From Anaeramoeba flamelloides (Eukaryota > Metamonada > Anaeramoebidae), in assembly GCA_027625915.1 (NCBI GenBank), contig JANTQA010000023.1, forward strand, positions 21,886,001-21,950,000: 64,000 bases of DNA. Direction: 5' to 3'. The number at the start of each line of letters is the position of its first letter. Position 1 is the first letter of the stretch. A program made the translations under genes and the position numbers. The notes under the pieces are model-generated. The model saw nothing but the letters and a program-made list of their open reading frames with translations, searched no databases and was not told where the DNA came from. Below, in pieces: positions 14,381-64,000 of the stretch.

Positions 14381-15659
14381 TTAATTGAAATCACGATCAC
14401 TGAATATTGCAGGAGCAATAACTGACCACCCATAAAGTAGTGCAACAACCCATTGAATAATTAGTTTTACATACATTGAAATTGCGCCTATTTAAAGAAA
14501 AAAAGAAAAATTGAAGAAGAATATAGAAAATAAGAAATGATTTTTTTAAAAAAAAAAAAACAAACAATAAAAAAGAAAACAAGTAAAAAAAAAAAAAAAA
14601 AAAAGAAAAACGAATACCTGTGTCAACTGATTTTGAAGTTGAAGTTAGTTCTAAATTCCAACCTGTAATTAGCATTGCCAAATATAAAGAGGCCATTGCA
14701 TAAACGAAATGGAAAAAGGAATATGAGTAAGGAGCCTGGCCTTGTAATCCAAGATCCTCGTCGTCGTTGTCTTTTAGTCTGAAGGCGTTGGAGTGGCCCG
14801 AAAGATTAAAAGTTGAATAGTTAATAACAATTACTGCAATAACAATACCAGGGATGATTTGCAAGGTACTTGCGTTTTGAAGTGAAAAGGGGTTACAGTC
14901 GGTGGATTGTTGACTTGCCAAGGCGGCCATCAAAAGGTAGCAACAATAAGCAAAGGCCATCCCAGATTCAAAAATACTTCCTGTCTCAACTTTCAAAGAC
15001 ATTGCCGAGTATATTACCATCAGAACGATCGTGATCACACAGAAGACTATATTGAGCACACACTTTGATCCTGTGAAATAGACAAACGAAAGAATGATCA
15101 TTGTCGTCCCGATGCCATATAAAATGACAGTGAAGAGTAATAAGGTTTTGAACATATCCCTTTCTGTCAATTTGTCGCTTAGATCATGAATCCACCCAAT
15201 CAAATAAATGATCTGGAGCAATAAAAAAACGCCACTCAGGATTTGAGAGATCCTTCCCCAAACCAAGAAAGTTGAGTTTGGAATGAAAATCGATCCGATG
15301 AAGAGCCCAACAATGAAAATGATTTTTGGTAGCCACCACCCGTTTTGTACAGTTGATCGGAAATCTGCAGAATCGTTCCCTCGGTACCCAATTAGTATCA
15401 ACATCTGGATGAAAAAAAAGATAAAGAGCACAAAGCTGATCCTAAACACCATATGAATCCCAACACAACTATTGAGCTCGTCACCTTCAAATTCTTGACA
15501 GCTGTCGAACGAATAGAGATTTTTAAATAATTTGTACCCAAGTGATCGAAAGACCAGCGCCAAAACTACAAAAATAGAAAAAATTAATGCATAAACCGCT
15601 CGTACTCGGTTATGCTTTTTTGCGAAAAAGGATTTTTTGTTATTAAAATCTCCGTCCAT
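14381..15659 (-). CDS. Serine incorporator (SERINC/TMS1 family membrane protein)
   Basis: The exons on the minus strand are 15659-14618 and 14487-14381, giving 382 residues. The junction VDT|GAISMYVKLIIQW is phase 1 with GT-AG borders. About ten hydrophobic segments span the protein. Family landmarks are RGNDSADFRSTVQNGWWLPK, SQQSTDCNP, PYSYSFFHFVYAMASLYLAM with LITGWN, and the last segment VALLYGWSVIAPAIF. SERINC proteins are lipid scramblase-like membrane proteins, first named for adding serine to membrane lipids. The start chosen is MDGDFNNKK; an ATG 59 codons upstream is in frame but adds a stretch that looks like untranslated AT-rich leader. The N terminus is short: the Cys-rich first segment usual in the family is missing, so an unseen 5' exon is possible. 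Confidence 0.92.
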
Positions 15660-16049
15660 AAGATTATTAAGAATATTGCTTTTTTTTTTATCGAAATATA
15701 GAAAAATTATCAAAAATGAAAACAATTTTTTTTTTTTTGTGTGTAGAGTTTTGAAATATTCATTGTGTTGATTTGGATAGATCGAGTAGAATTTCAGTTG
15801 AGAAACAATTTGTGACTTTAACCCACTTCTGAACAATATAATTACAATCGGGTTAATTCAAATGTTTTAATAACCCGGAATTATTACATTTTTAGATAAA
15901 AATCAGTCTGAAAACGAATCTCCCTTTTTCCGTTTTGTGTTTTTCTTGACAAGATAGGGTCCAAGAAACTTTTCGTAAGAAATCTTTTGATTCAAAATAA
16001 TTCTTATTTTCAATACAACCCCTTTTTTGTTTAAATAGTGTTGTACCCT

Positions 16050-20201: not shown

Positions 20202-21731
20202 TTATTTGTTTAGCTTCTCACCAATATTTATTTGTATTAAGGATTTAATTATTCCCCTGCACATTGGGCATTTATCTGATTTCATTCTGAGTAATTCCGC
20301 ACATTCATGGCACACACAGCAATGTCTGCATGGCAAAATTGTTGTATCTGGATCTGCATCTAAGCAAATTACACATTCCTTTCTCGTTTCATTATTTACA
20401 ATTAATGAATTTTTCGTTAATTGCTCTTTTTGTATTTTTTTTTGTTTCTCATTTTTTTTAGATTCTTGAATATTGCTATGATATTTTTTTGTTTTTGGCG
20501 AATCTTTTTGGGTTTTCTTTTCATTCCCACTATAATTCCCGTTTCCACTTCCACTTCCGCTTCCATTTCCATTTTCATTTCCGTTTCCATCTAGTCCATA
20601 GATTTCTTTTAATAAATATGTTTTACCTTGCACAGTGATTTTTTGTTTTATTACTCTTATTGAAAAGTTTTTAGTTTTTTCATTATAAACCAAAGTAGCA
20701 AAAGTTCTCTGGCTTTGTGGATTTTTTAAAATATTATTGCCTTCTCTTTCAAAATTACCCACATTTCCTTCTAAACAAATAATTACTGGATAAATTTCTT
20801 CAAGTGCAGGCAACTGATCAAAACCTTTGTTCATAACAATTTGGTTATTATTACTCGAATTATTGTTACTCTTTCTTTTTTTATGTTTTTTCTTTTTTTT
20901 TTCATTCTCTTCAGAAGAAGAGTGATCAGTTGCAGAACTTGGATCATCTAACAAATTATAATTATCTTTCTTTTTTTCTTTATTCCTATCTTTTTTTTGA
21001 TATTGTTTCTTTGGTTTTTCTTTTCTCTCGTTTTTGTGTTTTTGGTTTTGTTTGCTTGGATACTTTTTACGACTTCCTATCGTGTTGAATTGTTTCACTC
21101 TCGCTTCGTATTTTAATTGTTTCAAAGATTTATAAATTAAGCACCTTTGCTGTAAAGGATGAAAATCAGAGATGTCAATTGCGTGTTGATCGTCTTGTTC
21201 AAAAGATTGCGAAATGTCTTTGGGGAAATTAAAGGAAAATCCGTTTTTTGTCAAATTTGGTGCATAGCTTTTAAAAACAATTGCACCGTCCTTTCTTCTT
21301 ATAAACTCATTAGCACACCAAAAGACTCTTAATATTACTGGTATACCTGTATCAAAATCAAAGGAAATCTTGAATTTTCTTGAATTTTCATCCCCAACCT
21401 TGATTAATTTTAAAGTGTCTTTTTTCAAATTAATGTTATTCTTTACAGTCGTCGTTTCATGTATTTTTGGTGGCGGCTTTCGTGGCATGTTAGAAACTCG
21501 GATTCCCATTAACTCTGCTAAATTTCGGTTCATCTGGCTTCCGTTCGTCGTTTGTCCTCCATACATTATTGGATTCATCCCAAAATACATTCCTCGATTT
21601 CTGTTCCCATTTTGATTGTTTCTTCTAGCATGCGATCCTTCAGAGCCGTTATGCCTATGTCTTCGATTTCTTGAATTGCTGCCATTGTGTAAATCACTTG
21701 TTGAACGAGAACGTACCGAATTGTTTCCCAT
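20202..21731 (-). CDS. MGRN1/RNF157/LOG2-type RING E3 ubiquitin ligase
   Basis: A single-exon gene of 509 residues. It starts MGNNSVRS; the Gly at position 2 suggests N-myristoylation, as in plant LOG2/LUL ligases, and five upstream in-frame codons do not look coding. The segment from about residue 105 (DTLKLIKVGDENSRKFKISF) through about 400 (GKTYLLKEIYGL) matches the DAR2 region upstream of the RING in MGRN1. The C-terminal RING (about 452-491) reads CVIC, 12 residues on C-R-H, then C-x2-C and CPMC, with all eight ligands present. It would transfer ubiquitin to membrane-linked substrates. The DAR2 region is split by a Lys-rich insert (about 220-320) and followed by a Gly/Asn repeat linker (GNGSGSGSGNG). 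Confidence 0.9.
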   Translation of the reverse strand: MGNNSVRSRSTSDLHNGSNSRNRRHRHNGSEGSHARRNNQNGNRNRGMYFGMNPIMYGGQTTNGSQMNRNLAELMGIRVSNMPRKPPPKIHETTTVKNNINLKKDTLKLIKVGDENSRKFKISFDFDTGIPVILRVFWCANEFIRRKDGAIVFKSYAPNLTKNGFSFNFPKDISQSFEQDDQHAIDISDFHPLQQRCLIYKSLKQLKYEARVKQFNTIGSRKKYPSKQNQKHKNERKEKPKKQYQKKDRNKEKKKDNYNLLDDPSSATDHSSSEENEKKKKKHKKRKSNNNSSNNNQIVMNKGFDQLPALEEIYPVIICLEGNVGNFEREGNNILKNPQSQRTFATLVYNEKTKNFSIRVIKQKITVQGKTYLLKEIYGLDGNGNENGNGSGSGSGNGNYSGNEKKTQKDSPKTKKYHSNIQESKKNEKQKKIQKEQLTKNSLIVNNETRKECVICLDADPDTTILPCRHCCVCHECAELLRMKSDKCPMCRGIIKSLIQINIGEKLNK

Positions 21732-23021
21732 TCCAAAAAGATTAAAAAAATTAAAAATGAAAAAAATCAACTTTTTTAAAGACTATTTCTAAAAATTGCA
21801 ATTTAAAATGTTGAGATCTTATAAACAATCAACTAAAAAGTTTTTTATACATTTCTTTTTGACTTATTGTAATTTTTTAAAGCATTTGATTTGAAAGTTG
21901 ATCAGTCTCTTATTGAATTTTTAATTAATTTTATCCAACAAAAACTCATTTGGAGAACACTTCAAAATGCACTTTTATTTAATACTTCACAGACACAATT
22001 ATTTTTAATTGATCTTTCCTGAAATTTTCTCTCTTTTAAAAATTTCTTTGAATTTATAAAGCGTTTATGATTGTCATTAGATTTATTTTGGAAAATAGAG
22101 GTAATCAATTTGAAAATGCTAATTATTTTTTTTTATTTAAATTGTTTTAAAATTGTGAGGATTAAAAGTTAATAATATAGGAGTTCAAACTTTCTAATTT
22201 CACCATTTTAAACAGTTTGATTGATGTTTGATAATACTTTTTGTCTGTTCCCTTTTCACTGATGTTGCTTAAATTGTGATAAAAATATTTTTCAATTTAT
22301 AGCTGTTTGAACAAAGTTTGGAATTGATGTTTGGTAAGTAGGGCTTAAAACTATCTAATTCATATGTTTTAATCAGTTCAGTCAACATCTAACAAAAGTT
22401 TTGTTACACACTTTTCTAAAACAGCTGTACCAAAATCAAGATTGTAATTCTATTAAAGGTAAGTGTCTTAATATTTTTTGCTCTACTTTACAGACATCTT
22501 TTCATCTATTATTCAAAAAATGAAAATAAAAATTATCAAAAAAAGTTTTGTTAATATAAATTTAAATTCAAAAATTATCAAACCTTTATAAACGATTTTA
22601 AAAAAGCGAGTACAATTATTATTGTTCCAATTAAAACCTTTTTAATACAGTTATTTTCCAATTAATAAATGAAAATTTTTATTGCAATTTCCAAAATGAA
22701 TATTGATTAAAACTGTTACAATCAAATTACCACAGTAAAAATTTGGTCTCAGAGTTAACTAAGGAAGAGATATGTTATTGTCAAAAAATATCATTTCTAA
22801 ATGAGGATGTAAAGATCTTTGGATTTTCTGCAACTTCTAAACTAGAAAAAGATTTTGTGAATGTGAACTAAAGATTTTCATTTTTTTATTAAAAAATAAG
22901 AGTTTATAAAACTTCAAAAAGGTTTTAAAAAAGTCCTCACATTTCTAAAAATACTGTTCTGTAAAAATTGTGAATATGGTTAGATTCTATAATGGTCTAA
23001 AAGTGGGAATTTTTTTATAAT
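21732..23021. other. Gene-free stretch upstream of the RING gene
   Basis: No coding region was found. The AT-rich DNA includes repeated CAGTTTGA/TTGAACAAAGTTTGG words near 22200-22440 that may belong to another eroded TIR element. The promoter of the RING gene should lie here, but no motif is distinctive. Confidence 0.4.
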
Positions 23022-25591: not shown

Positions 25592-26848
25592 CTAATGGAA
25601 TTCAGGGCTTTTAAAAATGAATTTATTCAAATTGTCATCTTGTGAATTCCATTTTTTTTTAATAAACCATGCATTTAGAGAGTTGTCTAATATATTTTCC
25701 TCATTGCCATTTTTTTCGATTAATACAAAATTGGTTGTGTCCTTATCAAATTTCTTCTTTTTAATTTTCTGTATTAAACGACTCACCGTGTCGGTGGGCT
25801 CTAATTTTAAAGTTTTAAAAGAATCGTCATTGAAATACACTCGAATAACAGTCGATTTAATTTCTTCTAGTTTTTCTTTTTGTAATTTTTCATATTCTTC
25901 TTGTTGTTTTCTTAATCGATCTTTCAGTGAATTTTTTTTTATGGGGTTTTCTTGTGGGGTATTGTTTTCCTCCTTTTCATTATTGCCTTTTCTTCCCAGA
26001 TCTTTTTTTTCATTTCTTCCAAGCCTCGGTTGAGACTGTTTGAGCAGTTTTTTATTTTTTTTATTTGATAAAATTTCATTTAACATCAAAGCAGTTGATT
26101 TTCTTTTGTCAAGGTCTTCTTTTGATACTTCTTTAACAATTATTGTTTTTTTTTTTTCAAATTCATGTAAATACTGTCTACCCCTTCCTCTACCCCTTCC
26201 TCTTCCTCTTCCTCTTCCTCTTCCTCTTCCTCTACCCCTGCCTCTTCCTCTTCCCCTTCCTCTACTCATGCCTCTTCCTCTAACAACACCCCTACCTCTT
26301 CCTCTTCCCCTTTCTCTTTCAATTTGTTTTTCATTTGAGTAGGGTTGTGTCTTTTCAACAAATAAGTTTTTATTTAAGTTCTTTTTTTTTTCTTCAACCA
26401 AGCTGTTGTAAAAATTGCTAAACCTGTGAAAAAAATCCTTTTGCAAATACGAAGGTTTGTGAAGATCTTCTGTTTCATCCATTTTTGAAATGGAGTCAGT
26501 TTTTTTTAATGTTAAGTCCTTGTTGTTGAGCCCATAAGTGTTGATCCCAAGATCTTGTGCATTTGTTAAAAGAGACTTGTTGTATAAAAAGAGAAAAAGT
26601 TTGTTGATACCTTTCTCATTAATGTTTTGATAAATTTGTTTCGGGTTTGTTTCTGAGATCTCAATTTTTTTCCTTTTAAACCTTCTGTAATTTGGGTCTT
26701 TTAAAAATTTTGGTATTTGCCTTCTTCTGACAAAACGAGAAAACTGTAATTTGTGTTTCTGATCTTGTGTTAAATTGGGTTGAAATCTTTTATGATGATG
26801 GCGACATAATTTTAATTGACTTGTTTTTTTTGTTTGGTTGATTTGCAT
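25592..26848 (-). CDS. RG-repeat protein with C-terminal Ras-association-like domain
   Basis: A single open frame of 418 residues. The N-terminal third is basic and not recognised. About residues 177-226 are an almost pure Arg-Gly dipeptide array, flanked by RERGRG and RQYLHEF. Such RG/RGG arrays usually bind RNA and are methylated on Arg. A Lys/Glu coiled-coil-like stretch (DRLRKQQEEYEKLQKEKLEE) precedes the end domain (about 330-415: STVIRVYFNDDSFKTLKLEP, then VSRLIQKIKKK, FVLIEKNG and NKFIFKS). That end has the layout of a ubiquitin-fold RA domain, which binds Ras-type GTPases. The domain call is by eye from the spacing of hydrophobic residues and the final W..x..D.NKF element. The array is a hexanucleotide repeat and may vary in length. 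Confidence 0.75.
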   Translation of the reverse strand: MQINQTKKTSQLKLCRHHHKRFQPNLTQDQKHKLQFSRFVRRRQIPKFLKDPNYRRFKRKKIEISETNPKQIYQNINEKGINKLFLFLYNKSLLTNAQDLGINTYGLNNKDLTLKKTDSISKMDETEDLHKPSYLQKDFFHRFSNFYNSLVEEKKKNLNKNLFVEKTQPYSNEKQIERERGRGRGRGVVRGRGMSRGRGRGRGRGRGRGRGRGRGRGRGRGRGRQYLHEFEKKKTIIVKEVSKEDLDKRKSTALMLNEILSNKKNKKLLKQSQPRLGRNEKKDLGRKGNNEKEENNTPQENPIKKNSLKDRLRKQQEEYEKLQKEKLEEIKSTVIRVYFNDDSFKTLKLEPTDTVSRLIQKIKKKKFDKDTTNFVLIEKNGNEENILDNSLNAWFIKKKWNSQDDNLNKFIFKSPEFH

Positions 26849-42981: not shown

Positions 42982-45900
42982 ATGAACATATATCAACTTC
43001 TTCACAAAGACAAATTGGGCATCAAAATTCAACATGTAAAAAAACAAACCATTTTTTTCTCATTTTTCACTGCAATGGATACACCATTAATTTTCAAAAC
43101 ACTCAAACCAAGCAACACAATCAAAAAAATTCTGGGTGTTTCGAATTACATGGTAACTAACACCCCACAAAGTCTCTGTATTAATTCGTACTCTAAAGAA
43201 ACTGGCTTAACGTGTGAAATTCAACAACCAATCTTTGGAATTATTCAAGACACATGCGGAGGCATCCTTCATTCTCAAAATAAAAACAAAAACAAAAACA
43301 AAAATAAAAATAAAAACAAAAACAAAAACAAAACACAAGAAAAACAAAAAGAAAATAAAAATTATTTTTATGTACTATCAGAGGAAGGCTATGTTACGTG
43401 TGTAATTATAAATTATCCAAGATTTGAAACAAGCTTTCGGTATGATTTAAAAAGGAATTTTACAAAAACTAATCGGGCACATTTGATTGATTGCTCTTTG
43501 GATGGGAAATATATTATTGTGGGATCACTTTTAGGTGATTTAATTTTACTCAAAAAAAAAAAAAAAACAAAAAGAAAAAGAAATATTCAGGAAACGAATA
43601 AGAATGAAACTGAATTCTTCAGCAAAAATGAGAGTGAACAAGTCTATTTTAGAGATCGTAATTATAATCAATTATTAATCGATTTTTGTTTTTTAAATGA
43701 TTTTAATTCTTCTCAAAAAGGGACTATTTATATATTAGTGGTTCTCTATGACACAACAAAAAAGGACCACCCACTAACAAAAATTCAAATAATTGAGTTC
43801 AATTTGAATCATGGTCTGGAAGAATCAATCGGAACAGAAACCCAAAAATCCAAAGAAATTGAAAAACAAAAAGAAAATGAAAAAAGTAAGGAAAATGAAG
43901 ATGAAAACGAAAACAAAAACAAAGAAGAAAAAATTCAATCCAAAACTATCAAAATAATTCTTGAATATGAACTCGAGGGATGTTATGTCAATAAAATATT
44001 AAATCATTTTGAAAACTATTTCTTATTTAGTTATCAACAAGTCGTAGATGCAAAAAATAACAATTGTGGAATATTTTCACTAAAGTTGGAATGGGATCTG
44101 AATTTCCAGGAAAATAAGCCAAGCTTCATGAAAAAGGATCTCATTATTTTAAATGAAATGATATATAAAAGCACTTTTAATTTTGAAAGCAGCCAGCTGC
44201 TTTGCATTAGCGAAAATGGTAAAATTTATTTATTGAGCTGGATTTTTGATCGGAATAACAACAATAATGTCATTGGAATAGAACATCATTTTGATAATAA
44301 CCTTCCATTAACACCTGTAACTGACCTATTTTGGATTCAAAATAATATCTATTTTTTAGCAGGGAGTATGTGCGATCATAAAATAATCAAACTACAAATA
44401 AATACAGATCAAGAAATAAATAATAATAGTAATAAAAATAATTTGACATATCAATTATTATCAAATACCGAAAATAATGGTAATTATAAAAATGTTTCAC
44501 CAATTATTGATTTTTGTATTTATAACGAATTAAATTCTTATGAAAAACTTTTGGTTTGTACGAGATCTCAAACAAAGCCAACCATTCAAAAGATAAATAA
44601 TGGATATAATATTGAAACATTTTTTATTTTAAAACCGTTTGAAGACTTCAATTCTTCTAATTATAACTTTAATAATATTAATCAAAACCAAAAAATCACT
44701 GGCATTTGGAATATTGACTATAATTTAATAAATCATTATCAAAAAAATAAATTAAATGAAATTAATTACTCATTGAACATTATTTCTTTTTTGAATTGTA
44801 CCATTATCCATGATTTTCAAAATCCGAATATTAATTTGTTGTCATTAATACCAATAAATAGTAAGAGCCAAACATTAATGATCAAACAAATATTTTTGAA
44901 GACTAGTTTAATTTTACAAATTTGTGCACAAGGTATTAATTTAATCAATTGTCTTACAAATAAATTGGTCTCTTTTTGGAATTGTAAACAAAATGAATCT
45001 ATTTCAATATACGAGTGTAATAAAAGTGGACTAATTTCTGTTATCTTGGAAAACCAGAATAAAATTCTAATATTTAATATCGAAAATGATTTAATTATTT
45101 TAAAAAGGGAAATTATTTTCAATAATAATGCAATAATTACTTCAATGAAATTATTAGATTCCAAGAATAATGTCAGTGATTGTTATATTGGACTAAATGA
45201 TAATTCTGTTTTCCTTTTATCAATCGATTTAAATTTTATCGAAGAAATAAATCAAAATCATTTTCAAATGATTTATAATTTTAGCAATCCCGAATTTGAG
45301 AACAACAAGGAAGAGGAAGAGGACGAGGAAGAGGAAGAGGAAGAGGAAGAGGAAGAGGGACAGAAACAGAAACAACAAGAAGAAAACGGAATGGGAATTG
45401 AAAAAGAAATTGATAATGAAAATGAAAACATAAATGAAGATGAAAAAATAAAGGAAAAAGGAAAAACAAGTAAAGAACCACTAAATAAAGGAGAAAATGT
45501 CAAAAATAAAAAAACAATTATAAATGATTTTTTAATAGTGAAAATAAATAATTTAAAATTAATTGTTGTTGGTTTTCGTAATGGAATGGTTAATATTTTA
45601 GATTTTCATAATAATAAAAGTAAATTAATTTCCTCAAAAAAAATTGGAAACAAACCAATAAAAATCAAGATTATTCATAATAAGATACTTATCATTTCTG
45701 ATAATATTTGGATTGTTAATATCAATGATAACAAAAAAATTATCTATAATTTAATTAATTCTTCTTCAACTATTGTTGATTGTTATGTAATAAACCAATT
45801 TAAAGCCCCCATTCGGCAAATATCGGTAAACACCAATGAATTAAATAATGGAAATGAATTTGGATTATTAAAAGAATTGGAAGAAGAAAAAGATGTACCA

Positions 45901-47154
45901 AATCCCACATTAATATTAATTTCAGATAAAAACGAAATAAATTTTGCAAAAATTGACAACATAAAATCAATTTCAATAAATTCTTTTGAAACTGGAGGAA
46001 ATCCAAATCGTATTCTTTATGATAATAATAATGATTTGATAATTGTTAGTTGCTGTGATTCATTAAAAAATCCAGAATCAACAATAAATTATTTTGATCC
46101 AGTAGATGGCGATCTTTTCTATACATACCTTTTTGACGACAACGACTATGTATTTAGTTTAAGTCTTTGGGGAAGCCAAAAAAATAAAACATCAATATTA
46201 TGTGTTGGAACTGGAATTTTAGATTCCAATAAAAACTCAATTTCTGGTAAATTGTATTTGTTTGACTTCCAAATCAACCATGAACAGAATACTCATTTTT
46301 TACATCTAATATCTGAAAAAAAATTCACAAATGGTCATGTTTCTTCAATAAAGCAATTTATGCACAACTATCTATTGGTATCAAGCGGGGAAACTTTAAA
46401 TTTATTTTCTTTAAATAAAAATGGTACACTTGAAACTGTTTCTTCATTTGAGGCCAATTCCTCGATTATGGCAATTTCAACTTTTAATAATTTTATTGCA
46501 ATATGTGGAAAATCAAATGGATTATCTCTATTGAAATTTGAGCAAAAGGAAAACAAATTACAACTAGTTGCCAAGGATAAATCACCGAGGATTTTATCTG
46601 ATTGTTGCTTTTATTCGCAATATTGTATAGCAGCAGTAGACAGAATCGGAAACTTTTTCATGTATCAAATACCATCAAATATTTTATATTCTTTTGATGA
46701 AAACAACATATTGCCATTAAAAGTTATTAATTCCATGTTTTTAAACCAATCTTGCTTAAAAATTGAAAAATGTTTATTCCCAAATAACCAAGAAACACTG
46801 AATCCCAACATAATCACAATTTCAGTAACAGGTTCAATTTTTGGGTTTTATCATGTCAGGTTACAAGATTATAACCAATTATTATCATTACAAACGATAA
46901 TGAAAAAGCAACCCTTCCTTCAACCAGTTACAGGTAATACATTAAATGATTTTTTTTCTAAAAATTATAATTCTAAAAATGTTATTAATGCAGATTTTTT
47001 AATCCAATTTTTTTTATTAAATTCAAGCCAGCAATCCACAATTCTTAAAGATTTTAATAATTATTATTATAAAATGAAAAATAGAAATATTAATCAAATT
47101 TCGAAACTGGATATTATCCAATTATTAACAAGAATTTTGGAATCAATGATTTAA
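42982..47154 (+). CDS. DDB1/CPSF160/SF3b130-superfamily triple-propeller protein
   Basis: An intronless frame of 1,390 residues; the ATG at 43075 (MDTPLIFKTLKP) is an equally likely start, since the first 31 codons look like leader. Early motifs include CEIQQPIFGIIQD, then strand-rich propeller segments. The last 450 residues match the CPSF_A region: KISGKLYLFDFQ-like (SGKLYLFDFQ), KKFTNGHVSSIKQFMHNYLL, SLLKFEQKENKLQLVAKD, CCFYSQYCIAAVDRIGNFF and the end helices VINADFLIQFFLLNSSQQS and KLDIIQLLTRIL. DDB1 serves Cul4 ubiquitin ligases, CPSF160 3'-end processing, SF3b130 splicing. The QPxFGxIxD motif recalls a plant DDB1-like protein of unassigned role rather than these three. Low-complexity inserts are a Lys-Asn array (about residues 99-117), a Lys/Glu stretch (about 290-315) and a Glu run (about 775-793). 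Confidence 0.8.
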   Translation: MNIYQLLHKDKLGIKIQHVKKQTIFFSFFTAMDTPLIFKTLKPSNTIKKILGVSNYMVTNTPQSLCINSYSKETGLTCEIQQPIFGIIQDTCGGILHSQNKNKNKNKNKNKNKNKNKTQEKQKENKNYFYVLSEEGYVTCVIINYPRFETSFRYDLKRNFTKTNRAHLIDCSLDGKYIIVGSLLGDLILLKKKKKTKRKRNIQETNKNETEFFSKNESEQVYFRDRNYNQLLIDFCFLNDFNSSQKGTIYILVVLYDTTKKDHPLTKIQIIEFNLNHGLEESIGTETQKSKEIEKQKENEKSKENEDENENKNKEEKIQSKTIKIILEYELEGCYVNKILNHFENYFLFSYQQVVDAKNNNCGIFSLKLEWDLNFQENKPSFMKKDLIILNEMIYKSTFNFESSQLLCISENGKIYLLSWIFDRNNNNNVIGIEHHFDNNLPLTPVTDLFWIQNNIYFLAGSMCDHKIIKLQINTDQEINNNSNKNNLTYQLLSNTENNGNYKNVSPIIDFCIYNELNSYEKLLVCTRSQTKPTIQKINNGYNIETFFILKPFEDFNSSNYNFNNINQNQKITGIWNIDYNLINHYQKNKLNEINYSLNIISFLNCTIIHDFQNPNINLLSLIPINSKSQTLMIKQIFLKTSLILQICAQGINLINCLTNKLVSFWNCKQNESISIYECNKSGLISVILENQNKILIFNIENDLIILKREIIFNNNAIITSMKLLDSKNNVSDCYIGLNDNSVFLLSIDLNFIEEINQNHFQMIYNFSNPEFENNKEEEEDEEEEEEEEEEEGQKQKQQEENGMGIEKEIDNENENINEDEKIKEKGKTSKEPLNKGENVKNKKTIINDFLIVKINNLKLIVVGFRNGMVNILDFHNNKSKLISSKKIGNKPIKIKIIHNKILIISDNIWIVNINDNKKIIYNLINSSSTIVDCYVINQFKAPIRQISVNTNELNNGNEFGLLKELEEEKDVPNPTLILISDKNEINFAKIDNIKSISINSFETGGNPNRILYDNNNDLIIVSCCDSLKNPESTINYFDPVDGDLFYTYLFDDNDYVFSLSLWGSQKNKTSILCVGTGILDSNKNSISGKLYLFDFQINHEQNTHFLHLISEKKFTNGHVSSIKQFMHNYLLVSSGETLNLFSLNKNGTLETVSSFEANSSIMAISTFNNFIAICGKSNGLSLLKFEQKENKLQLVAKDKSPRILSDCCFYSQYCIAAVDRIGNFFMYQIPSNILYSFDENNILPLKVINSMFLNQSCLKIEKCLFPNNQETLNPNIITISVTGSIFGFYHVRLQDYNQLLSLQTIMKKQPFLQPVTGNTLNDFFSKNYNSKNVINADFLIQFFLLNSSQQSTILKDFNNYYYKMKNRNINQISKLDIIQLLTRILESMI

Positions 47155-50655: not shown

Positions 50656-51405
50656 ATGGACAACTTGAACACTCGAGGAACAACCAAAAAACAACCTTTA
50701 GATTTTCAAGTTACTGAGAAAACTCGAAAATTAAGAGATTCTTTTGATCATACAATTTTTGAAATATTTACAAACGAAGCAAGGAAAGATCATATAAGCG
50801 TCTCAAAAATCGCACTTCATACTTATTCACATCTTTTGTATAATTATTTGTGTATGTTTGTTTTTTTTTTTATTTTTTCATAGCCTTCTTTTTATCGTTC
50901 TTCGTTGTTTGTTAAAAAAAAAAAAAACAACAAAAAAATAATTTATTTTGGAAACTTCTTTTGCAAAGTAAAAACAATTTGTCGAGATCTTGAACAATTT
51001 TCATCTCACGCAGGAAGAGTTACAATTAAACCAGCTGATTTGTTACTAATCTGTCGAAGGAATAAAACTTTACACGAATTAATGCGTTCAAAAGTTGAAG
51101 AACTAACCGAAGAGAAAAAAAGACACCGAGAAAAAACAAAAAAGAAGAAAAAAAAAAAAGAAAAAGCTATTAAAATCAACGAAGAACAATTTTCAAACAA
51201 CTTTCAAATTGAAAAAGAATTTCAAAATGAAACAATTTTTGAGGAAAACAAATTTGAAAACAAAAATGAAAAGGAAAACGAAAAAGAAAAAGAAAAAGAA
51301 ACAGAAACAGAAAACAACAATAACATTAATAACCAGAACATTGATGATTTTTCCTTTCAAGACTCTGACGATTTTGAAGCTCAATTTGACTTTCTTAGTG
51401 ATTAG
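50656..51405 (+). CDS. CENP-S / MHF1 histone-fold protein
   Basis: Exons 50656-50851 and 50969-51405 give 210 residues; the 117-nt intron has a GTATGT donor and phase 1. The histone fold covers about residues 20-105: EKTRKLRDSFDHTIFEIFTN, then SKIALHTYSHLLYNYLLK, TICRDLEQFSSHAGRVTIKP, ADLLLICRRNKTL and HELM. DLExFxxHAGRxTI and the xDLxLxxRRN motif are hallmarks of MHF1/CENP-S. With CENP-X it forms a histone-like tetramer that works with FANCM in fork repair and with CENP-T-W at the kinetochore. The C-terminal 90 residues are an unusual extension: a Lys-rich run, a Lys/Glu repeat, then an acidic tail (DDFSFQDSDDFEAQFDFLSD). The junction leaves one residue more than in the human protein between the second and third helix, so the exact splice is slightly uncertain. 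Confidence 0.88.
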
Positions 51406-57077: not shown

Positions 57078-57407
57078 ATGCCAAAATTCGAAGTTCAAAA
57101 AGAAAATCCGATTGAGAGTCTTTTTCGGAAGAAAACTAAAAAAAAAAAAAAAAAATTTCGGTTACCAGCGATTCTTGACTTAGTCACAGACTCTGTCCGA
57201 TTCAGGTTTTTTTCGTCCATTCTATTTTTGCTTGTTCTTTTGAATGCAAGTTCGATCATTAACCAGATTTTAGGAACAAATTTCAAATACGCCGAAAATC
57301 TACCAACAAAAATGACTTTCAAATCGTTCCCTCCATTTGAAATAAATTATGCCGAAGATCTGAAGTCGCCAACAATTGTAACTGGTTTTTTTTTTTCTCT
57401 CAAATGA
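57078..57407 (+). CDS. Unrecognised single-pass membrane protein, first exon
   Basis: The frame opens MPKFEVQKENPIESLFRKK, passes a Lys run, then FRLPAILDLVTDSVRFRFFS and one clear membrane segment (SSILFLLVLLNASSIINQIL, about residues 46-66). A non-low-complexity tail follows (TKMTFKSFPPFEINYAEDL then KSPTIVT). The final residues (GFFFSLK) are probably intronic, since a GTAACT donor sits at about 57377. An acceptor at 57496 leads to a short segment that reads RASHGFNERLFG-stop in the phase of that donor, or GPLTVLMKDFLDKTLKIKQ with a GTAATT donor in another phase. I could not decide which is right. The basic N terminus before the membrane segment suggests it faces the cytosol. No family was recognised. 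Confidence 0.5.
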   Translation: MPKFEVQKENPIESLFRKKTKKKKKKFRLPAILDLVTDSVRFRFFSSILFLLVLLNASSIINQILGTNFKYAENLPTKMTFKSFPPFEINYAEDLKSPTIVTGFFFSLK

Positions 57408-57713
57408 ACAAATTACCCATTCTTATCAAAAAATTTTTTCAAAAGTCAAAATCTTTCTTGTAAATGATCGATCCTATTTGTGAAATGTATTTTTAGCGGG
57501 CCTCTCACGGTTTTAATGAAAGACTTTTTGGATAAAACCCTCAAAATAAAACAAGTAATTACAACCAAATAACGGACTGTTCTATTTTGGTGTTATCATA
57601 TTTTTCTGATTTTGTGTTTGAAAATCCAAAATACTAAGAATATTTAAGAGAGGAGATGGTATCTAAACTTCAATTAGACAAAACTATCATCTCATTTTCT
57701 TTTTGTTCTAAAA

Positions 57714-57891
57714 TAATGGTATTTGAATTTTAAGTGGGAATAATTTTCTTTTCATTTTCTATTTCCTTTTTCATTACATTTTTAGATCTCACAAATTACA
57801 ACCTACTTCTTTGAGAACTCTTTTATATGTGAAAAAAAATATGGAAAAGGAAGTGAAAATTTATTAGCATTTAGAATTCAAATACCAGTAG
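57714..57891. mobile_element. Short TIR element (TATTTGAATT family), copy 2
   Basis: Left GGTATTTGAATTTTAAGTGG and right TTAGAATTCAAATACCAGTA are inverted. Inner CATTTTCTATTTCC and GGAAAAGGAAGTGAAAAT match the copy at 6535-6706. Confidence 0.65.
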
Positions 57892-59023
57892 GTAAAAAAA
57901 ATTTCTCTTTTAGCTACTAAAATTAAGTACTATTTGATGAAAAATGAATTGAACAAAAATTTCGTTCACCTTTCCAAAAAAAAGAAATACGCTTATTCGA
58001 ATAAGAAATGGGAAAAAAATTTTCACTTGCTTTTTCTATTTCATTTTTTTTATCAATAGAGACCCCAAAGAAATAGATTGTAAATTTATGATCTCTCTTT
58101 GTTTGTTTGGTCCTTTTGTATTCGATTTATTCTAAGATGTTGGAAATACTAAAAATCAAAAAAAAACCATGGTTTCTGTATTGAAAAAAAGAATATCAGT
58201 TAAATTGTTTTCCATTTGAATGCCAAATACCTATATACAAACCGAAGACAATTTAAACTCTTTAAAATTCTTAATAGGTGATATTATTGGATTTCAACTT
58301 TTAGAATCTTTGAGTTTGACGATTTCTTTGAATTCTCTGGGTTGTGTTTTATTTTATTTTTCAGAAAGTGGAATAAAAATTTTGTACAATTTATTTTGCC
58401 ATTAACAGTATAATACAACTCCACCAACATTATAAAAAATGCCCGTTTTAGGTTAAAACGGGACAACTAACTTGAAAATATTTTACTTTAATGACAAAAA
58501 GACCAAAATGATGCAAGTTGAAGAAAAATGTTTTTTCAATTTAATACTCAAATACTAGCAGAAATAAAAATTTTGAATTTTCACGTAGTAATACAATGAA
58601 TTGGATGATTAACTTTATGAATGTTACAATTACTACCATGGATTATCTCCATACCCTAAAAATGCTTACCACTCTCCAAATGGTTTATAAAAGGAGACTT
58701 TCTTATGGTTGAAAAATTTGAAAGAAGTTTGGTTCAACTGTTTTAAAAATGTGTGGACCCAAAAATTTTTAAGGCGTCACCTCAAACTGTTCTAATTCTC
58801 TCTCTTAAGCAGTTTGAATAAAACTTTTTAAAACCTTTCGTCCGCACATTTTTAAAACAGCTGAAAAGATTCAAAGGATTTTAACACTGTTATCTTCCAA
58901 TTAAGAAATGAAAATTTATATTTCAAGATTGGAAATATTTTTCAAATTATTAGTTGAAAAAACTAACAATCTTCACAAAATCGATTGGAAATGATATTTT
59001 TAGAGATTTAATTAACCTTTCCT
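57892..59023. other. No accepted gene
   Basis: Contains a partial TATTTGAATT-family element near 57990-58100 and an inverted pair around AACTGTTTTAAAAATGTG (58737) and CATTTTTAAAACAGCTG (58848). A 61-codon frame at 58220 was not accepted as a gene. Further exons of the membrane protein could lie here unseen. Confidence 0.4.
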
Positions 59024-59258
59024 TACTGATAAATTCAAATTTATTTAATGAAAATTTTAGTTCAATTTCCATTTTTGTAATCTAGGCACTCAACTTTTAA
59101 GACAACTCGAGAGTAAGAATATTTTGAAGGAACAACTAATTTTACAAAGTTTCTCAGTATTTAAGCCAACATAATGCGATATTCAAAATGATTAAAAAAA
59201 GATTTAAAAAGGATAATGAAGTAAAAAATTTTTCGATATTTATTTGAATTTATCAGTA
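59024..59258. mobile_element. TIR element (TACTGATAAATT family), copy
   Basis: The ends TACTGATAAATTCAAATTTA and TATTTGAATTTATCAGTA are inverted. Inner GAAAATTTTAGTTCAATTTC and GAAGTAAAAAATTTTTC also pair with the relatives at 6764 and 23022. Confidence 0.7.
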
Positions 59259-59303
59259 TTAAACTTTGAGAAAAAATTTTAATTAGGGAAATTTGGTTTT
59301 TAA

Positions 59304-60539
59304 GCGACTAGTAAACAATAAAAAAACCCTCTAATAAATTTAATAGCAAATTCAAAAAAATTTTACAGCCTCTTGAAATTGAAAAACCAAGAAAAAATCT
59401 GATTACTTAAATAACAATTTTACTTTTAATGTTATTTTACAAAATGAATTATTGTTTTTTAAAAGTTTGATACATTTTTCTGATTTTTGAAAAAGTTCAA
59501 AATCCAACATATTTATGAATTATTTCAAACAAAATATTTTCTTGGAATGAAAGAAGAAAGAAATCTTATGGTCCGTAAAAGGAAGTGTACAACAATAATT
59601 TTCAAAATAAAACTCACTAAGTTTTAAAAAAAATCGATATAAAAAATCTAATTAATTTCAAAAAAATTACAAGAATTATTTTAAACTTGAAAAAAGTATT
59701 TTGGGAGAATTTTTAATTTAATGGTTTGGTTGTTTTTCTCGTGTTTTTTTGTTCAACAAAAAGAAAAAAAAATTTTGGAACTGTTCTTTGAATCAAAAAA
59801 TTATATTTTTTTCAAACCTGGATAAAATTCAACCTCTAACCTAAAGAAATACCTTTTTAATTTGATTCTTTTTAATCAATAATTAATAACACAATCATAA
59901 TCATTTTATTGTGTTGGTAATAACCATAAGATTAAAAATATCCATAGATTTTATTATTATTTCTCATTTTTTTAAAGAAATTTTCAACAAATAAAACTAA
60001 TTCAAATAAATAAATTTAATAAAAAAAAAATAATAGATATTATCAAATAACTGATTTTAATACTAACAGTTTGTTGTTTATACTCTTAATATTTGAAAAA
60101 GAATATTGTCTTTATCTTTTAAATTTCAAGAAATTTAATAAATATTTGTAAATAAAATAAAATCTCAATTTTTTTTAGATCTTCAATGGATTCAATATTT
60201 GATTTATTTTTTATTATATTTTTGAAATTAAGATTAAACTTTACAAGGTTCTTTCTTCATATAAACTCTCAAAATTTACTAAAAGTGATATTTCTTCAAA
60301 ATAAAAATATTTTGCAAATTTTTCTTTTTCTTATTTTGATCCAAAAATACAAATCAAAAAAGGATCAAAGATCTTTTTACTAAAAATTTAATTAGGGAAA
60401 AATGAACTCTTTTAAAAATGATTATTCATTTCTCTAAAGTTGATAAATGGGGTTGATTAATCAGGTTTAATTGTATTCTTACGTAAATGAATTTCTCTAT
60501 TACCTTTGGGGAAAAGAATCAATAATTGTTACGAACTCC
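59304..60539 (+). mobile_element. 1.2-kb TTAA-type element, copy 2
   Basis: Collinear with 759-1986 for the full length: GACTAGTAAAC at the start, AAAGTTCAAAATCCAACATA, AGAAGAAAGAAATCTTA, and TTACCTTTGGGGAAAAGAAT near the end. The left TTAA is intact (59300-59303); the right one has changed to TTAC. Confidence 0.65.
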
Positions 60540-62008
60540 TTACAGTATTGAAAATTCAAAGATTATCAAAAAACAAATAACATCAATCTTTTTCTTTGGT
60601 TTCCATTTCCTCACTTACTTAAATTTTTTCGATTTTGAGTAAAATCGTTTTTCTTTCAGTTCAAAAGGTATTTGTTCAATTTAATCCAATTTGTCATTAC
60701 ATTTTTACTCTTTTTATCTTTGAGAAAGTAATTAATTTATTCGATTATTTTTCTAAAGCTTACTCATTTAAAAAATGAAAAAATAATCGAATAGATCTGA
60801 AAAGGTACCAATGGGACTCTTAGAAACTAGATATGTCTGGATTCAAAATAATTAAATATATTAATTCAAATTTGAAATTGAAGATCTCTCTTTCCTAATT
60901 TTTTTTTGAAAAATTTCCTCTTTTTTAATTATTGGTTTTGAGAGATTGATCGTAAATCGCATGCTTATTTCTTTTTTCTTTTTAATAGGTACTCAATAAA
61001 AATTTGTAAAAAAAATTTTATTCAATTTTCAAAAATTTATTTTTCACTGTAATGACTCGACACTTAAAGTACTTTTCTAAAAAAGAAATGAATTATTGTT
61101 ATTTGAATTTTAAATGGGGATAATTTTTAACTTCATTTTGATTATTTTTTTTTTTTTAACTTTCAAAAACTTTCAAAGAAATAAATTGAAATTAATTCAT
61201 TACATTTTATTTAATTTTATTTATTTTTTGTTTGGACAAAGTTTCTGTTTACTGGTTTACTAACTATATTTTGGTTAAACTTACACTTTTATATGAAATG
61301 AATATTTAAGAATTGAAAAAAGAAAATTTAATTGAATTTTGAAAATCCTAAATTCAGATTTTTACTTCCAGCTTACAAAGTAAACTCTGTGGATGAAATT
61401 ATCATTAATTGAATTGGTTCTTTTTATTTCAATTTTTATTTTATTTAGATTTACCAAATAAGTAATATTATAATTTTTCTCTTTTGATATCTCTTCTCAT
61501 AAGCGTTATTTTTCACATTTATTTTTTTAATGTTACCCACTTATGTTATTTTTGTGATTGTATAAATATAATATTTTCAGGCTCTAGTGATTATCGTTAA
61601 TTTTCTTCATATTTGAGGAGTTAACTTACTCACTAAAAATGATTATACCACAATAGACATCTTATAGTTGAAAAAAATTAAAAGAAATTATTCTGTTAAA
61701 TTCTAATTTTACAAAAATTTTAATATTATCTCAGAATTTCAATATCCCAAAAGTTAAATTAAATCTCTCAATATTAATTGATTTTGTGAAGATCTTAAGC
61801 TTTTTTCAACTCATAATTATCAAAATATTTTGAAAGTTGAAATCAAACTTTTGATTTATGTATTGGAAAATAACAGTATCACTTCAATTGGCATTGATAT
61901 TATATATAATAAAAATTACTTGTCAAATTAAATAGTAATTCAAACAATCTGAATAAAAAAACTTTAAAAAAAATATTTTATTGTTGAAAAAAATCTTATT
62001 TTCCTAAT

Positions 62009-62046
<38 letters not shown>

Positions 62047-62047
62047 G
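60540..62047. other. Gene-free stretch, probable intron or 5' flank of the last gene
   Basis: One partial TATTTGAATT-family end lies near 61090-61140. Otherwise AT-rich with nothing recognised. It ends in a 29-base A run (62013-62041) and a CATAG acceptor (62043-62047). Confidence 0.45.
62013..62041. repeat. Poly-A run before a splice acceptor
   Basis: 29 consecutive A directly upstream of the acceptor at 62046-62047. It is an unusual place for a purine run, since acceptors normally follow pyrimidines, so the exon may instead begin slightly differently. Confidence 0.9.
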
Positions 62048-64000
62048 ATTAGAATTTCGTCAAAGAATGATCAGGGAAGTAGTGGAAAAGAAATTGTTTT
62101 ATATCCACATTACTATGATGGTTACACGACCTTTTTACAGGGAAAAACTTTGGATGAATATCAGCTTGATGATGTCAAAAAGATTATCATAACTGGTGAA
62201 GAGCAAGGTGCGATGGGTGAAATTACCAAAAAGGCTGATAGTGATGGCTTTGCTGATTTTAGTAAAATGAAAATAAGCGGTGGCCCCACTGGTATCATCA
62301 TATTGCCATTTGTGCATTCTGATGACTTGCAAACATATTTCCCACTTTTTGCGTTTAGTCGTGTCAACAAAATCAAAAATTTAACAACCCCACCAACTGC
62401 AATAACAGGGTATAGCGATGAAGAATTTGGCAAGCCGCTAAGTGTTCAGCCTAAATTCCAAATTTTTGATAAAAATGGTGATCCAAGTGCGGGTCATTTT
62501 ATCACTATTTCGAATTTCGAAACGCAGCCAATTGATTATCCCATCTATGATCGATTTGTGCTGTTAGATAATAACATTGCGGGTCCATCTGATTCTGATG
62601 GTATCGTCGAGTTTACGGATTTAACCATCATTGGAGGCACTACAAGCTATCATTTTTTATCTGCCTATTGCGAAAACGATTTAACAAAGTCTTCAGGGAC
62701 CGAGTGGGTTGATTACAATTACGGCAAGCAGGGCGACGACACCTTTATTGAGCCCATCAAATTGAAAACACAGGTTTCACAGGTGGCCATTGTCCAACAG
62801 CCAAGTGGGACGATTGAAGAGGGCAAACCCTTTAATGTTCAACCAACTATAAGAGTAACCGATTCCCATGGGGATCCCCTCAAGGGCAAAACCATCATTG
62901 CTAGACTCAAGATTAGCGGGAAAGATGATTTAAATGAATATCGGCAGCAAATTGGCTGGAAAACGAAATACCTCTTAAACTCTGTTTCTGGGAAAACAGA
63001 TTCCAAGGGCGAGGTGACATTTGATGATCTAAGATTTAGTTACACGGGACTGACCATTAAGGGATGGGAAGAATATATTTTTAAAATGAAATTCATTTGT
63101 GATGGGATCGGATCGGAGCTATCGGATCCCATACTCATTGAGTCGATCGTTGCAAATATCACAGTCCTATCCTCTCCAACAAAAATTAACCCCTTGGAAA
63201 ATTGGTATTTGTATCATGAGCAAAGCATAACTGAGCCCTATGGGCTAATATCACCATCGATCTCGTTAAAAATCATTGATGCCAATGGTATGGGCGTACC
63301 AAGTAAACTGGTCAAATTATTTGCGTTTCCCACAACGAGTAACAGCTTTTCTTTCAGCCCCGCTATTCTCATAAGCGATGAAGTCAAAAGATCGGATCTT
63401 GATGGGATCGTCTCCTTCCCCAACAGTAAAATAATTTCGCTCAACGATAGTACCATTGATCATATTAACTTTTTCCTCTACGTTGACGATTATCTGTTCA
63501 AAATCAACCAAGAGCCAATCGCGATCGAATTAGGCGATAACGAGGCCGAAAGGTGCTCCCAGATATGGGTCAACCGAACCCACATACCTGTCTATTTGAT
63601 GGATCCCAAATACAAAGTAGGCACAGAGCCCTTTAATTTAACTGTTCGGGTGATGGACTATAAGGGGAGGGGGCTCTCTGGCATGCAGGTCAAGCTTGGC
63701 AACCACTTGCAAGTTCTCACATACGACGAATTCCCCGTGAACTACGGGTACCCCGTGCAGGCCCAGGATCTAACAGACGAGGATGGCTACGCGACATTCC
63801 AAGACTTCCGATGGTATGGCTACAATTCCACGATCGATCAAGTAATTATTGCCTACAACCCAAATTTACAACCGCAATTGGAAAACAGCAAATTTGGCTA
63901 TGATTGCTACTACTGGTTCAATGTCCAAATTGAAGCAAACATTAAGCAAGTCGAAATCTTCAATTTCCCCGACTCCGATGAGAAGGCCTATTACCCCTTC
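62048..64000 (+). CDS. Large protein with tandem Ig-like (invasin/Big-type) repeats, partial
   Basis: The frame is open for 651 codons from the acceptor at 62047 to the window end, with no stop; both ends are incomplete. At least four units about 130 residues apart begin near residues 104, 240, 367 and 500, and a fifth starts near 634. Each has a beta-strand opening (GKPLSVQPKFQIFDKNGDP; GKPFNVQPTIRVTDSHGDP; GTEPFNLTVRVMDYKGRG) and, 45-60 residues later, a turn and strand (SDSDGIVEFTDL; TDSKGEVTFDDL; TDEDGYATFQDF). This pattern matches bacterial-type Ig-like or carboxypeptidase-regulatory-like beta sandwiches found in large surface proteins. N-glycosylation sites (NRT, NLT, NST) fit an extracellular position. 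There is no signal peptide or membrane segment in view. G+C content rises along the exon to about half, far above all other genes here. Confidence 0.75.
   Translation, partial: MRISSKNDQGSSGKEIVLYPHYYDGYTTFLQGKTLDEYQLDDVKKIIITGEEQGAMGEITKKADSDGFADFSKMKISGGPTGIIILPFVHSDDLQTYFPLFAFSRVNKIKNLTTPPTAITGYSDEEFGKPLSVQPKFQIFDKNGDPSAGHFITISNFETQPIDYPIYDRFVLLDNNIAGPSDSDGIVEFTDLTIIGGTTSYHFLSAYCENDLTKSSGTEWVDYNYGKQGDDTFIEPIKLKTQVSQVAIVQQPSGTIEEGKPFNVQPTIRVTDSHGDPLKGKTIIARLKISGKDDLNEYRQQIGWKTKYLLNSVSGKTDSKGEVTFDDLRFSYTGLTIKGWEEYIFKMKFICDGIGSELSDPILIESIVANITVLSSPTKINPLENWYLYHEQSITEPYGLISPSISLKIIDANGMGVPSKLVKLFAFPTTSNSFSFSPAILISDEVKRSDLDGIVSFPNSKIISLNDSTIDHINFFLYVDDYLFKINQEPIAIELGDNEAERCSQIWVNRTHIPVYLMDPKYKVGTEPFNLTVRVMDYKGRGLSGMQVKLGNHLQVLTYDEFPVNYGYPVQAQDLTDEDGYATFQDFRWYGYNSTIDQVIIAYNPNLQPQLENSKFGYDCYYWFNVQIEANIKQVEIFNFPDSDEKAYYPF

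Follow-up and report, generated by a model that had tools for sequence, protein, structure and literature searches.

A predicted STRA6-related membrane protein with a GC-rich arm of Ig-like units in Anaeramoeba flamelloides

A large repeat gene at the end of the window

The window analyzed here is a stretch of 64,000 nucleotides from Anaeramoeba flamelloides, a metamonad according to a taxonomy look-up (GenBank assembly GCA_027625915.1, contig JANTQA010000023.1, positions 21,886,001 to 21,950,000 of the forward strand), which forms part of contig 24 of a genome of 254 Mb in 76 contigs; all positions below are window coordinates. Its gene content is eukaryotic (Serinc and CPSF-type matches), and its far end holds the first part of a large gene, referred to as C24, which is predicted to encode an arm of tandem immunoglobulin-like (Ig-like) units followed by a membrane domain related to STRA6, the vitamin A receptor of vertebrates. 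An initial annotation of the window had described 651 stop-free codons at 62048..64000 with tandem units of about 130 residues and unusual third-position GC, and had proposed a large repeat surface protein. The open frame and the units were confirmed, and this view of the protein was right, with the surface location probable. The STRA6-like half went unnoticed because it lies beyond the window end.

The gene is predicted to have two exons separated by a GT-AG intron. Comparison of the frames upstream of the paralogs yielded mostly chance matches, and one exon, exon 1, stood up on a second comparison (43% over 105 amino acids, E = 3e-12, against the frame upstream of paralog C70a). Its predicted borders are an ATG at 57078 and a donor GT at 57378 in phase 0. 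Exon 2 is immediately preceded by an AG, the predicted acceptor, and its frame of 2005 codons runs to a stop at 68063, beyond the window end, so that exons 1 and 2 give a predicted protein of 2105 amino acids. A run of 29 A at 62013-62041 lies shortly 5′ of the predicted acceptor. Scanning the window for Rfam families and tRNAs gave no match. The features of the gene inside the window, all on the plus strand, are:

57078..57377, + strand: exon 1, 100 codons, with the lysine-rich N-terminus, an LDLVTDSVR motif, the first membrane helix and the start of unit 1
57162..57200, + strand: conserved N-terminal motif LPAILDLVTDSVR, LDLV being present in four of four paralogs
57207..57266, + strand: predicted signal-anchor helix FFSSILFLLVLLNASSIINQ, called by eye
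57378..62047, + strand: predicted AT-rich intron of 4670 bases with GT...AG borders, in phase 0 at either end
62048..64000, + strand: exon 2, the first 651 of 2005 codons inside the window, extending beyond it to 68062
62048..62344, + strand: remainder of MG/Ig-like unit 1, split by the intron (unit profile)
62360..62719, + strand: MG/Ig-like unit 2 (unit profile)
62771..63145, + strand: feature between units 2 and 4 (unit profile, fold comparison)
63146..63532, + strand: MG/Ig-like unit 4 (unit profile)
63551..63907, + strand: MG/Ig-like unit 5 (unit profile)
63938..64000, + strand: first part of MG/Ig-like unit 6; beyond the window come units 7-10, then the STRA6-like membrane domain

From N- to C-terminus, the protein comprises the lysine-rich N-terminus, one membrane helix, ten beta-sandwich units of about 130 residues, three hydrophobic segments, a linker rich in K, S and E, and the membrane domain, which consists of four further hydrophobic segments, a hydrophobic stretch that we take to be intramembrane, and a charged tail. 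Exon 2 holds nine whole units and part of unit 1, and in the main exons of the four paralogs together the unit profile finds 38 units, with E-values that are circular and inflated, as the model was trained on the same units. In fold comparison the units match macroglobulin MG4 best and invasin/intimin next, while Foldseek with a unit model gave no match at E ≤ 0.001. Sequence identity with the MG domains of complement and alpha-2-macroglobulin is about 10%, and the arm differs from these in being membrane-bound, in having ten units and in lacking a visible thioester motif (GCGEQ), none of which was seen around its five cysteines when the translation was inspected by eye. A search for Big_1 (PF02369), which the initial annotation had proposed, gave weak matches: at E 0.1, 4 of 18 units are hit, the best with E 0.0011, and the summed score of the whole protein passes the curated cut-off, but no single unit or stretch passes alone. 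Unlike invasin and intimin, the protein has no visible outer-membrane barrel (Pfam scans found no beta-barrel family) but helical membrane segments and a STRA6-like membrane part, and its gene lies in a eukaryote and has introns.

Homology of the membrane half to STRA6

The C-terminal membrane half is homologous to vertebrate STRA6 as judged by sequence comparison. The C24 protein matches PF14752, the STRA6/RBP receptor family, with 57.9 bits against a cut-off of 25, and a profile of the four paralogs finds the STRA6 structure (PDB 5sy1) with E = 7e-10. When a three-paralog profile was compared with STRA6, three stretches aligned in the same order, covering the linker with helix 6 (weak), helices 8-9, the intramembrane region (R-x-D, D-x-G) and the calmodulin-binding helix; the helix 8-9, intramembrane and calmodulin region is kept best. 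The motif W-x5-L-x-N-N is common to all four paralogs, the proline after NN being absent in C24. A PDB search with a 47-residue query from the calmodulin region alone found nothing, a profile being required, and the profile reached the bound peptide 5k8q_B with an E of 0.69, a weak match. The last aligned stretch spans CaMBP2, the published calmodulin-binding peptide of STRA6 (PMC7154012).

This assignment comes with several caveats. STRA6 is described as having nine helices with an RBP-binding domain between VI and VII (PMC3546623; PMC4584289). The helix VI piece scores just 1.3 bits, and helices I-V are without alignment: STRA6 has five helices before its cytoplasmic linker, and C24 has three hydrophobic segments between arm and linker plus one N-terminal helix. 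The region of the RBP-binding loop (STRA6 297-420) did not align anywhere in the profile comparisons, and the bias correction is large. A published screen dropped PF14752 hits restricted to positions above 400 (PMC9333335); the matches of the four paralogs begin at 197, 256, 309 and 379. The protein further differs from STRA6 in carrying, ahead of the membrane domain, the array of ten MG/Ig-like units and one additional N-terminal helix, and in a host that is probably non-animal. Mapping the segments from the C-terminus would place the linker inside and the arm outside; this is our reading of the segments rather than a computed topology.

PF14752 exceeds the cut-off in C24, C70a, C70b and C19, the sole four such loci found in the genome. 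Querying with the arm recovered the same four loci, all of which carry the array, and this protein search found no array beyond them. A genome search with Big_1 returned nothing and also missed the four known paralogs, hence it is uninformative. PF14752 had no match in 14 control genomes, a weak control, as those named are bacteria and archaea. The paralogs are 30-57% alike. C70b and C19 have an apparent extra exon (a short N-terminal exon, then one with the helix and unit 1), and intron positions therefore differ between the two paralog pairs. In C19 (1740-7443 of its stretch), two overlapping frames of 1378 and 530 codons switch inside a low-complexity stretch, perhaps because of a frameshift or a short intron, or because this copy is decaying.

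A STRA6 homolog outside animals that is fused to an MG/Ig-like arm was not found in our searches of the open-licence literature, and such a homolog, predicted here from sequence, is our main result. Among the titles listed from the open-licence PMC literature, none concerned a protist STRA6; eukaryote sequence databases lay outside this search, and protist entries may exist. The available text of the Anaeramoeba genome paper does not mention "retin" or "Ig-like" (PMC11550330).

Third-position GC of the arm

Anaeramoeba genomes are AT-rich, as stated in the genome paper (PMC11550330). In bins of 300 bases, total GC is 0.15-0.24 over the 2 kb upstream of exon 2 (the last 2 kb of the intron), 0.38 at the start of exon 2 and 0.48 at 63601-63900. 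The climb from near background described initially thus holds for the level near the window end and for third-position GC (GC3), which starts low at 0.29 (codons 1-150), but not for total GC at the exon start, which is above background. GC3 reaches 0.61 in codons 451-600 and is 0.21 in the membrane part (codons 1351-1500), and four-fold GC rises from 0.32 to 0.73 in codons 751-900, just past the window end. Seven other frames of the window are AT-rich at third positions, as the initial annotation had said (GC3 0.22-0.38). For a wider comparison, 37 open frames of at least 180 codons in the scanned stretches were used, which are frames rather than proven genes and include three of this family and 12 actins. 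The 34 non-family frames have a four-fold GC of 0.18-0.41 and at most 0.56 in their best 150-codon stretch, while the window exon has 0.55 and 0.72; the C24 exon is clearly outside their range.

The initial annotation had proposed a comparison of GC among paralogs; in this family of four the rise is present but unequal. Ectodomain GC3 is 0.47 in C24 and 0.35-0.39 in the three others, and four-fold GC is 0.59 and 0.40-0.47, respectively; two of the other arms are above the range of the 34 frames and C70b (0.395) is inside it. A contrast between arm and membrane part is present in each paralog, but weaker in these three. Among codons for the same residue in C24 and C70a, 152 of 589 in the ectodomain end in G or C in C24 and in A or T in C70a, against 104 in reverse, as compared with 49 and 45 of 310 in the membrane part, and therefore part of the GC excess is peculiar to C24. 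The upstream exon of C19, in which its unit 1 lies, shows no GC enrichment (0.24 at four-fold sites), and GC3 by unit number follows no conserved pattern across paralogs (correlations -0.50 to 0.68 in six pairs).

Both selection for abundant expression and gene conversion among repeats or paralogs had been offered as causes of the GC rise, and both now appear very improbable. With actins taken as the highly expressed reference, the C24 arm has a codon adaptation index of 0.24 relative to 12 actins, lower than any other stretch measured. The other arms score 0.27-0.31, the membrane parts 0.33-0.41 and fourteen further frames 0.29-0.48, and the actins themselves reach 0.69-0.82. Some C-ending codons are raised in both the arm and actin, as selection would predict (AAC, TTC, ACC, GCC and GTC; four actins), but others raised in the arm are hardly used by actin (GCG, CAG, GGC, CCC, TCG, ACG and GTG; same four), and G-ending four-fold codons reach 0.23 in the arm and 0.009 in four actins (0.00-0.02 in 12). 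Codon selection for abundance is thus contradicted. The joint increase of C- and G-ending codons would be expected from GC-biased conversion; however, the units are not homogenised. Identity is 0.184 between units within the same gene (162 pairs) and 0.184 between differently numbered units across paralogs (486 pairs), but 0.40 between units of the same number across paralogs (55 pairs), and the best match is the same-numbered unit of a paralog in 38 of 38 units, which contradicts homogenising conversion. The GC rise also ends at the exon edge.

Recent transfer, a further cause offered initially, is unlikely because four diverged paralogs carry the array, because each of them has the arm-membrane GC contrast, and because a predicted GT-AG intron interrupts the gene and the protein is fused to a membrane domain known from animals. 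A related explanation is that the array alone is bacterial, of the Big_1/invasin type, and was fused to a STRA6-like protein of the host, the raised GC being a remnant of the donor. The weak Big_1 matches would fit, as would a raised GC that, within one exon, marks the array but spares the membrane part. On the other hand, MG domains of the complement type are no worse a fit to the fold, the diverged paralogs are old, so that a third-position signal of the donor should have faded, and the level and course of GC along the array vary among paralogs. We consider this origin improbable, although less so than selection or conversion. The high GC3 of the arm is hence treated as a separate feature that does not reflect codon optimisation. 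It may stem from a regional bias or from a constraint on the coding sequence, for example slow codons that aid folding of the arm. As such, the gene offers a strong, exon-limited GC rise in an AT-rich genome for which three common explanations are weakened.

Possible function and genomic surroundings

We favor the reading, with a probability of roughly 0.6, that the array is the extracellular arm of a STRA6-related receptor-transporter of the plasma membrane. Beside the homology, which the sequence comparisons establish, we infer location, ligand capture, cargo and regulation as follows: the lysine-rich N-terminus would stay inside the cell, the ten units would form a long outward arm whose captured ligand could be a carrier of lipid, prey that bears lipid or the surface of a cell, a hydrophobic molecule would enter the membrane through the STRA6-like domain, and calmodulin bound to the protein would act as a structural or regulatory partner that holds or regulates the assembly. 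RBP-delivered retinol is probably not the cargo, because neither lipocalins (PF00061, 0 genome matches at E 0.01) nor RPE65-type enzymes (PF03055, 0 at E 0.001) were found, in an exon-wise search that is no proof of absence; our guess would be a sterol, a quinone or another isoprenoid from prey.

Alternatively, the protein could be a receptor for adhesion or recognition only, its arm binding prey, symbionts or cells and its STRA6-like part serving as a calmodulin-coupled anchor that no longer moves lipid. We regard this as possible but doubtful, since it is the helix 8-9, intramembrane and calmodulin region of STRA6 that is kept best, beyond the needs of an anchor. For the receptor-transporter, a tentative evolutionary scenario, to which we give less credence than to the reading itself, is that the membrane fold of STRA6, together with its calmodulin arm, is older than animals, RBP and the transport of vitamin A. 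In this scenario, an earlier receptor with an MG/Ig-like arm of its own took up other hydrophobic molecules from its prey or its environment, and vertebrates later swapped this arm for soluble RBP. With a probably non-animal homolog that has the calmodulin helix, and no lipocalin found, the origin of the STRA6 fold becomes testable, and C24 represents a natural variant that may capture its ligand with part of its own chain.

The neighbouring genes of the window, with AT-rich third positions, are:

14397-15836: Serinc gene
20202-21770: gene for a RING-finger protein
25592-26848: gene for a protein with an RA-like domain
42982-47154: gene for a CPSF-A/RSE1/DDB1-type protein

A frame of 166 codons at 50905-51405 has a CENP-S (histone fold) match at its start and a weak DDHD match after it, and may represent two neighbouring exons or genes read as one. 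Elsewhere in the genome, on many contigs, actin forms a very large family with 110 matches, fragments included, of which 16 are near the top score. According to the genome paper, A. flamelloides assemblies are almost six times the size of that of A. ignava and hold >1100 ribosomal protein genes as compared with 82, a ratio of about 13 (PMC11550330). RPS23 was found here in 13 copies by first-exon match (26 matches in total), every copy being hit as two pieces with the break at about the same position, as if by a shared intron.
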